46,940 nt of DNA from an uncultured Actinomycetes bacterium (GTDB taxonomy: Bacteria > Actinomycetota > Acidimicrobiia > Acidimicrobiales > RAAP-2), in NCBI GenBank assembly GCA_903900235.1, contig CAIUMH010000148.1, forward strand, positions 1 to 46,940, written 5' to 3'. The translations under genes and the position numbers were made by a program. The notes under the pieces are model-generated. The model was given only the letters and a program-made list of their open reading frames with translations, was not told where the DNA came from and did not search any database. Numbering within the stretch: position 1 is the first letter of the stretch; each line of letters starts with the position of its first letter. This document shows positions 41,478 through 43,292 of this stretch, one piece after another.

Positions 41478-41591
41478 GACCCCAATCTGCCATCTGGGTG
41501 TGACGGTTCTGGCGAGCCAAACCCTTGGTATTACTGGGATCTGGATGTCACATGCGCATGAGAGCATGAAGGCGAGAGAGAGGGAGATGCC

Positions 41592-42575
41592 ATGAGCAGA
41601 GACACCAACGACCGGGCGGGATACGACATCATCGGAGACATCCACGGCTGCGCCGAACCCCTTGAGGGTCTGCTTGAGGCATTGGGGTACGAGGTGGTCG
41701 ACGGGTCCTGGACCCCGCCGGAGGGCCGCCGAGCGATCTTCGTCGGCGACCTGATCGATCGCGGACCGAACCAGCGACGTGTTCTTGAGATCGTCAAAGG
41801 TCTCGTCGATGCCGGTGCCGCTCTGATCACCCTTGGCAATCACGAGTTCAATGCCCTGGCCTGGAGTACCGAGCACCCGAATCGACCTGGGGAGTTCCTC
41901 CGTGAGCACTCCGAAGGGAAGCGCAAGCAGCATGCGGCCTTCCTCGACCAGCTCACCGAGCAGGAGCGGTCCTTCTACCTCGAGTGGTTCCTTAGCCTTC
42001 CGCTATGGCTTGATCTCGAGGGGATACGCGTGGTCCATGCGTGTTGGGATCCCAAAGCGATCGAGTTGCTCCGGAACCAGTTGGGCGGTGACCGGTTCGC
42101 TGATCGCGGCCAACTGGCGCGAGCCTGCGATCGGAGCGATCCACTCTTCACTGCGGTCGACACCGTCCTCAAAGGCCCCGAGATCAACCTTGTCCGCTCC
42201 GGGCTCCCCGAGTTCCAAGACAAGGATGGAACCCATCGTGAGCAGGCTCGGCTCCGCTGGTGGGTGTCGGGAAGTGATCGGGTGGCTCACCTGGCGGAGA
42301 TCCCCCCGGGATCTCTCACTGCAGATGGGGATCGCTATCCGGTGATCAACGGTGACCTCGTTGTCGCAGATCATCTGGAGTTCGCCCCGCACGAGGGAAC
42401 CCCGATCTTCTTCGGGCACTACTGGCGGCGATATGACGACGGCCTCGAGGTCGCCTGCACTGAGAACACGGCCTGCGTCGACTTCAGCGCCGCCAAGGAC
42501 GGCCCGCTCGTTGCCTATCGCTGGTCGGTCGGCGAGGAGTGGATCGATCCCTCTCGGTATGTGGCGTACTACTGA
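41592..42575 (+). CDS. Metallophosphoesterase (calcineurin-like, PrpE/ApaH type)
   Basis: A 327-residue dimetal phosphoesterase. The metal-binding motifs are in order: GDIHG (15-19), GDLIDRGP, GNHE, a histidine in VVHACWD, and FFGHYW near the C-terminus. The arrangement and length are like PrpE/ApaH-type Ser/Thr-phosphatases and diadenosine tetraphosphatases. The substrate is open. GGGAGA is 5 nt before the ATG at 41592. The next gene starts about 30 nt downstream. Confidence 0.92.
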   Translation: MSRDTNDRAGYDIIGDIHGCAEPLEGLLEALGYEVVDGSWTPPEGRRAIFVGDLIDRGPNQRRVLEIVKGLVDAGAALITLGNHEFNALAWSTEHPNRPGEFLREHSEGKRKQHAAFLDQLTEQERSFYLEWFLSLPLWLDLEGIRVVHACWDPKAIELLRNQLGGDRFADRGQLARACDRSDPLFTAVDTVLKGPEINLVRSGLPEFQDKDGTHREQARLRWWVSGSDRVAHLAEIPPGSLTADGDRYPVINGDLVVADHLEFAPHEGTPIFFGHYWRRYDDGLEVACTENTACVDFSAAKDGPLVAYRWSVGEEWIDPSRYVAYY

Positions 42576-42605
42576 GACGGCAGGTCCCTGTGGGATGCTC
42601 GGTGC

Positions 42606-43292
42606 ATGACTTAGTCTGCCGGCACCTTCATCCTCCTCGGCGGTCAGGCTGCCCGGACTGCATCACTGGCCCGATTCCTGCTCGAGCTGGCTCCGGGGCC
42701 GAGGGTGGCGGTACTCCCTCTGGCGGCGGCATTCGGGTCGCCGGAGCACGAGGTCGTTTCGGCCGCTACTTGGGTGAACGAGGCCGGGGCGGAGGTCGAG
42801 GGGGTCATGGCGATGAACCGAGCCGAGGCCGACACCGCGGAGTTGGCGGCCCGGGTGGCTGAGGCTGACATCGTGCTGCTGGTTGATGGCTCAGCCATGC
42901 ACCTTCGCACGGCGCTCAAGGCCACGCGCCTCCTCGACGAGATCCGAGCGCTACTGATCCGCGGCGGTGTACTCGTTGCGGAGGGCTCATCGGCCACGGT
43001 GCTGTGCGATCCGATGGTGGACCCTCGTGGCGGCGCTCCGACCGTTGGTCTCGGGCTCCTCTCGGGGATCACCGTCATCTCACACATCGCTGGAGAGACC
43101 GAGGAGACAGCGGCCGACAAGTTGGCTCGGACGGCGGCGCTCGTGCCTAGTGATCTTCCGGTGCTCGGTCTGGCTGCCGATGCGGCGGTGCTGGTGGACG
43201 CAGACCGCCGGCTCCAGTTGATCGGAGCCGGCGTGGTCAGCGTGCTTCAGGGTGGAGTGGAAGTCGATCCCGGGCAGATCAACCTCAGCTGA
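42606..43292 (+). CDS. Peptidase S51/cyanophycinase-like protein, amber codon at position 3
   Basis: The natural start appears to be ATG at 42606: it opens a frame that runs ATG ACT TAG and then codes directly for SAGTFILLGGQAARTASLA, the expected first beta strand of an S51/class I amidotransferase-like fold. The frame stays open to 43292. No in-frame ATG, GTG or TTG exists between the TAG and GTG at 42705, where annotation software would start the gene (195 residues), but this would remove the first strand and glycine loop. The later part has VAEGSSATVLCDPM, the probable nucleophile region. Either the gene is inactivated, the TAG is read through, a rare start codon (ATC or CTG) is used, or the base is a sequencing error. 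Confidence 0.65.

Follow-up and report, generated by a model that had tools for sequence, protein, structure and literature searches.

The S51-like gene of the window, by which we mean the whole stretch of 46,940 nucleotides analysed here from an uncultured bacterium of the Acidimicrobiales, opens with ATG ACT TAG. This raises the question of whether a gene with a stop as its third codon can still yield its protein, and of what brought the stop about. The original prediction had described an amber third codon in frame with the gene, and the sequence agrees: the ATG (42606-42608) and the TAG (42612-42614), both on the plus strand, share the frame of the codons directly 3' of the stop (TCT GCC GGC ACC TTC ATC CTC CTC GGC GGT), and orthologues start exactly at this ATG. 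Beyond the TAG the frame is open for 225 codons (42615-43289) up to a terminal stop at 43290-43292 (+). The next in-frame start is a GTG at 42705-42707 (+), 33 codons from the ATG and residue 31 counted after the TAG, which opens an ORF of 195 amino acids. The absence of a normal start between the TAG and this GTG had also been predicted; it was borne out, and a scan of 42607-42704 for ATG, GTG and TTG found none in any of the three forward frames. TAG is the terminator of 6 of the 20 long gene-like frames in the window.

The interrupted frame retains the properties of a gene. Codon usage over the 30 codons between the TAG and the GTG (42615-42704, +) scored +0.11 bits per codon in the gene frame, compared with -0.42 and -0.46 in the other forward frames, and was thus coding-like in the gene frame only. 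The remainder of the gene, which had been said to keep its coding character, does so at +0.19 bits per codon over a frame without further stops; the reference is a median of +0.29 bits per codon over 328 windows in long gene-like frames.

The S51-like label given to the gene was right. The frame after the TAG (42615-43292, +) matched Pfam Peptidase_S51 (PF03575) at 35.3 bits, with a cut-off of 23.9. The cyanophycinase equivalog TIGR02069 gave 47.1 bits, below its cut-off of 126.6, and by sequence the protein is a member of the S51 family that is not filed as a cyanophycinase. An AlphaFold model of the frame had a mean pLDDT of 94.3, and the best Foldseek match in the PDB was 6nqc (E 2.1e-13, TM 0.81 by query length), followed by 7uqv, 7uqw and 3en0; 6nqc, a peptidase from an acI-B1 actinobacterium, is the nearest solved structure. 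The predicted protein thus combines a near full-length profile match above the curated cut-off with the fold of solved cyanophycinase-like members (6nqc, 7uqv, 3en0), but it differs from them at the putative nucleophile. We take the Ser of TSAGA in 3en0 to be that nucleophile, in agreement with the title of 7uqw (S132DAP). At the corresponding column the window and four other aligned members of the genus (L031, L003, L004 and L010) have Gly, and of 97 aligned sequences, counting the window, 32 have Ser there and 48 have Gly. The window therefore lacks the Ser in an xSAG-type motif expected of an active S51 serine peptidase, and because this column is Gly the name peptidase should not be taken to mean activity. 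This column falls within 42984-42998, which are residues 124-128 when counted from the codon after the TAG. From these alignments, part of the S51 branch in Acidimicrobiia is predicted to be non-catalytic, and its LCDPMVDPRGGA block is strikingly conserved.

Comparison with orthologues located the ancestral start. In L003, L004, L010 and L171, which represent four other species of the genus, the gene starts at the codon equivalent to ATG 42606, and the spacer from the ATG to GGNAC[C/G] is 12 nt in these four and in the window. This shared position and spacing show ATG 42606 to be the ancestral start; with orthologues beginning at the very same codon, it is not just a chance ATG ahead of the gene. 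By the same comparison the TAG is a substitution-type change within the variable codons 2-5, not a frameshift; an indel in place of a substitution was ruled out by the identical 12-nt spacer in all five.

The wider family agreed. An in-frame start was found before the GG motif of strand 1 (G-x-L-A-L-V-G-G or similar) in 97 of the 97 other distinct 5' ends, every one of them upstream of the equivalent of GTG 42705, so that the possibility that orthologues all start at the position of this GTG, which would have undone the original prediction, failed. The prediction had also called for a search of orthologues for a sense codon at this place; no readable orthologue 5' end had an in-frame stop between start and motif in its printed frame, and the window was the sole exception. 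The printed frames served as the check, because the start-counting script searches backwards for the closest start, never passes a stop and is therefore blind to interrupted genes. The script could read the start in 104 of the 110 loci gathered (window included), which gave 98 distinct 5' ends. The six uncounted loci were L002 and L031 (same contig, cut at residue 10), L103, L109 and L110 (the contig begins inside the gene) and L039, which was mis-anchored by the script and has a normal start, MSGWLALIGG, in its printed frame. L171 and L174 were added later and stand outside the 110 loci.

The closest relative, G003, is 82% identical, and its contig ends at residue 10 of the S51-like gene, so that codon 3 lies outside it. 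This break, on contig 93 (L170), falls inside the first codons of the gene. A search of the G003 DNA with window positions 41500-42700 returned only a 34-base match (88%) elsewhere, and a protein search of G003 with the gene upstream of the S51-like gene returned no match. That upstream gene is co-directional (41592-42575, +), ends 30 nt before ATG 42606 and is not the ancestral neighbour. A rearrangement that cut the 5' end of the S51-like gene was considered on account of this non-ancestral neighbour and rejected: the 30 nt upstream of the ATG share 18 of 30 positions with those of L003, a level that 1 of 5000 shuffles attained (mean over the shuffles 8.7), and the start region itself therefore looks ancestral. 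The same 30 nt matched L004 at 7 and L010 at 9 of 30 positions, no better than shuffles.

The ATG appears to be the first codon of a leaderless mRNA. Zheng et al. 2011 (PMC3160421) describe TANNNT about 12 bp upstream of the start as a mark of bacterial leaderless genes that is frequent in actinobacteria, and Cortes et al. 2013 (PMC3898074) give a like signal for M. tuberculosis. In the window a -10-like hexamer, GATGCT (42594-42599, +), is separated from the ATG by 6 nt and so ends 7 nt before its A, the register of leaderless actinobacterial genes (hexamer at about -12 to -7). It has the A at -11 and the T at -7 but, unlike the described hexamer, lacks the first T of TANNNT. The register recurs in the S51 family: A at -11 together with T at -7 occurred in 14 of 25 distinct 5' ends from the same taxonomic family (1000 shuffles: mean 0.6, maximum 4), and in 21 of 25 with one position of slack (mean 1.9, maximum 6). 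When the register was slid by one position, 4 and 3 of the 25 matched, and when it was slid by two or more, 0 or 1. Across all 97 other 5' ends the strict pattern occurred in 24 (mean 2.2, maximum 8). Because this recurrent register stands directly before the ATG, the S51-like mRNA probably begins at ATG 42606 itself. The probable identity of the ATG with the first base of the message goes beyond what the original prediction had read from the locus.

Whether ribosomes could pass the TAG was assessed from the translation machinery. RF1 is encoded (prfA, 466.5 bits; cut-off 423.25), and ARAGORN calls on the stretches around all 46 tRNA-model hits in this incomplete genome contained no CUA anticodon; of four tRNA-model hits below the cut-off, three were not called as tRNAs by ARAGORN. 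The genome thus shows neither of the signs of stop reassignment or suppression, a CUA suppressor tRNA or a missing RF1. With RF1 encoded and no CUA tRNA among the calls, translation is expected to stop at the TAG once Met-Thr has been made, and, from the sequence and the structural model, the most likely outcome is that no functional protein is made.

The original prediction had offered three readings of the stop, namely a fresh nonsense mutation, a read-through device and a two-codon leader with re-initiation. The first is now the best supported, with a sequence error as its alternative, and the other two did not hold up: read-through is left without support by the RF1 and tRNA results and by the lack of a stop at this place in any orthologue, and the leader is little supported because there is no usable second start. 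The general form of these latter two readings, in which a leaderless ATG ACT TAG sets the output of the S51-like gene as a two-codon leader or through low-level read-through of the TAG, appears quite improbable. In its favour, an ATG or GTG at the 5' end of the mRNA is, according to Shell et al. 2015 (PMC4633059), necessary and sufficient for leaderless translation in mycobacteria, so a Met-Thr-stop mini-ORF would be translated; the frame downstream of the TAG has also been under past purifying selection. Against it, the next ATG, GTG or TTG in any forward frame lies at least 90 nt beyond the TAG, the first one reached would cost the protein strand 1, helix 1 and part of strand 2, and no Shine-Dalgarno-like site was apparent, by eye only, before residue 31 or the near-cognate codons. 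The arrangement resembles the mycobacterial leaderless short ORFs described there, in that ribosomes would start on a 5'-terminal AUG and finish after very few codons; it differs in that the short ORF here is the start of the gene, which offers no other ATG, GTG or TTG for that distance, and is not a separate small ORF. A narrower version, a minimal leaderless start-stop switch in which the ribosome is retained after Met-Thr-stop and restarts at a non-AUG codon just past the stop, or reads through it under stress, and so makes the conserved protein at a low, conditional level, has the slightest probability that we would assign to any reading.

Short ORFs do occur before S51 starts in some relatives, which makes a short leader conceivable. 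In four distinct 5' ends from one other genus of the family (L011, L015, L016 and L174) an ATG or GTG stands exactly 14 nt before the S51 start and opens a mini-ORF of five codons and varying sequence, out of frame, whose TGA overlaps the S51 start (ATGA or GTGA); in L009, from a fifth genome of the genus, the start is in frame. These mini-ORFs, which were noticed after the fact, are possibly leaderless and coupled to the S51 gene. Unlike the arrangement in the window, they are out of frame and precede an intact start. Nor is the overlapping mini-ORF a family-wide feature, a candidate that was rejected because overlapping out-of-frame mini-ORFs in 17 of all 98 distinct 5' ends are not above chance (500 shuffles: mean 10.9, maximum 22).

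Expression could also be imagined from another start, with ATG-ACT-TAG irrelevant: GTG 42705 is one candidate, and near-cognate codons, for example ATC 42630 and CTG 42666, are others. The GTG opens its own ORF, and the protein truncated to that start would score 28.3 bits, still above the Pfam cut-off. This start would, however, lie downstream of those used by the orthologues, and in the AlphaFold model it would delete strand 1 (residues 4-8), helix 1 (16-25) and the first residue of strand 2 (30-34), within a 30-residue N-terminal part whose ten-residue blocks have mean pLDDT values of 92-96. Codons 10-30, which it would remove in full, are conserved as protein. Comparison of these codons with G003 gave 15.5 synonymous changes in 19.5 sites (pS 0.79) and 5.5 non-synonymous changes in 43.5 sites (pN 0.126), while pN elsewhere in the gene was 0.125 (codons 31-129) or 0.111 (codons 31-223); by this measure the segment is conserved as protein despite saturated synonymous change. 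An alternative start is accordingly unlikely, if a little less so than a control device.

The same comparisons bear on the age of the stop. Of 39 amino-acid differences between the window and G003 in 216 aligned sites, 10 were derived in the window, 10 were derived in G003 and 19 could not be assigned. At 47 columns conserved to at least 90% among the other sequences, the window departed at 12 and G003 at 13. Judged from these substitutions, the window branch is without sign of relaxed selection or excess amino-acid change, which suggests that the TAG is either recent or not real. The gene itself had no match in 16 of 100 genomes of the wider clade (its own genome included in the set); 9 of these 16 belong to the 70 genomes with completeness of 90% or more and contamination of 5% or less. 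It was matched in all six genomes of the genus. Taken at face value, this distribution indicates that loss is tolerated in the wider clade and that the gene is not obviously dispensable within the genus. When its own genome was searched with the S51-like protein, the sole match was the protein itself.

We favour, with somewhat better than even confidence, a real nonsense substitution of very recent date at the third codon of the S51-like gene, itself dispensable and leaderless, in the strain or strains assembled. The main competitor, to which we give a substantial but clearly smaller share of belief, is a base error in a metagenome assembly, through sequencing error, low coverage or a mixed-strain consensus, with the real gene intact and ordinary. 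The window is the whole of one contig in a 157-contig assembly (96.55% complete, 1.52% contamination), presumably of metagenomic origin; the rest of the gene is without decay, as would be expected equally of an error and of a recent mutation; and stops between the start codon and the motif are absent from all 97 other distinct 5' ends. Nothing speaks directly against an error; an indirect point is that both the -10 register and the spacing from the ATG to the following conserved codons are preserved. The preference for the mutation is one of judgement and not of measurement. Mutation and error taken jointly make it very probable that no special mechanism is at work.

If the base at the TAG is taken as correct, a recent nonsense mutation would act as follows. 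The mRNA would start at the A of ATG 42606, the ancestral start, and the 70S ribosome would begin there, add Thr and meet the UAG, whose position is read directly from the DNA. RF1, which is present, would release the ribosome, and presumably no full-length or other product would be made from the downstream frame, which bears the marks of past selection. No other ATG, GTG or TTG precedes GTG 42705, and re-initiation there would give at best a core-deleted fragment. The locus in this form resembles an incipient nonsense pseudogene, with a single in-frame stop, a frame otherwise intact, no other defect seen and intact orthologues in sister species. It differs from one in that the stop is at codon 3, the start is apparently leaderless and no rescue start is nearby; the base, too, is putative. 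Among the matches listed in a literature search on leaderless starts, early stops, pseudogenes in metagenome-assembled genomes and S51 proteins in freshwater actinobacteria, none evidently concerned this case.

As a nonsense mutation or an error, the TAG has little import except for annotation: automatic gene prediction could place the start at GTG 42705 and so yield a truncated protein, and since the orthologues do not share that start it should not be trusted. Were the TAG confirmed and found fixed across several strains that still conserve the remainder of the gene, the locus would offer a clean test of restart or read-through right behind a leaderless AUG.

A codon-model scan of the window for other interrupted genes was also tried, and the candidate stops that it flagged are unsuited to estimating an error rate. 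At a strict threshold (30-codon flanks) it listed no interrupted gene in the window. At a lax threshold it flagged 9 of 511 stops with 25-codon flanks (sensitivity 0.67) and 4 of 280 with 40-codon flanks (0.75). Stops with coding-like flanks on both sides at the lax threshold included 3817, 19290 and 44358 on the plus strand and 43298, 38170 and 35984 on the minus strand; several of these are probably ordinary gene ends or shadow frames.

The surroundings of the gene have also changed. In four congeners (G001, G002, G004 and G005) the S51 gene is divergent and lies beside a gene that we take, from sequence resemblance and not from a family search, to encode a 3-hydroxyacyl-CoA dehydrogenase-like protein. 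In the window the two genes are on the same contig, 20.6 kb apart (21986 and 42606), and in G003 the dehydrogenase-like gene likewise has other genes upstream, with the S51 gene on another contig. Because the G003 arrangement is separated as well, the separation of the two partners probably predates the split between the window and G003, and is probably independent of the TAG. The interval from 21986 to 42606 holds what we presume to be a P450-like gene, a sugar ABC transporter and a large S8-like protease, among others. Of these, P450-like and ABC-ATPase genes at the least also precede the dehydrogenase-like partner in G003. The interval looks like an old insertion or rearrangement.
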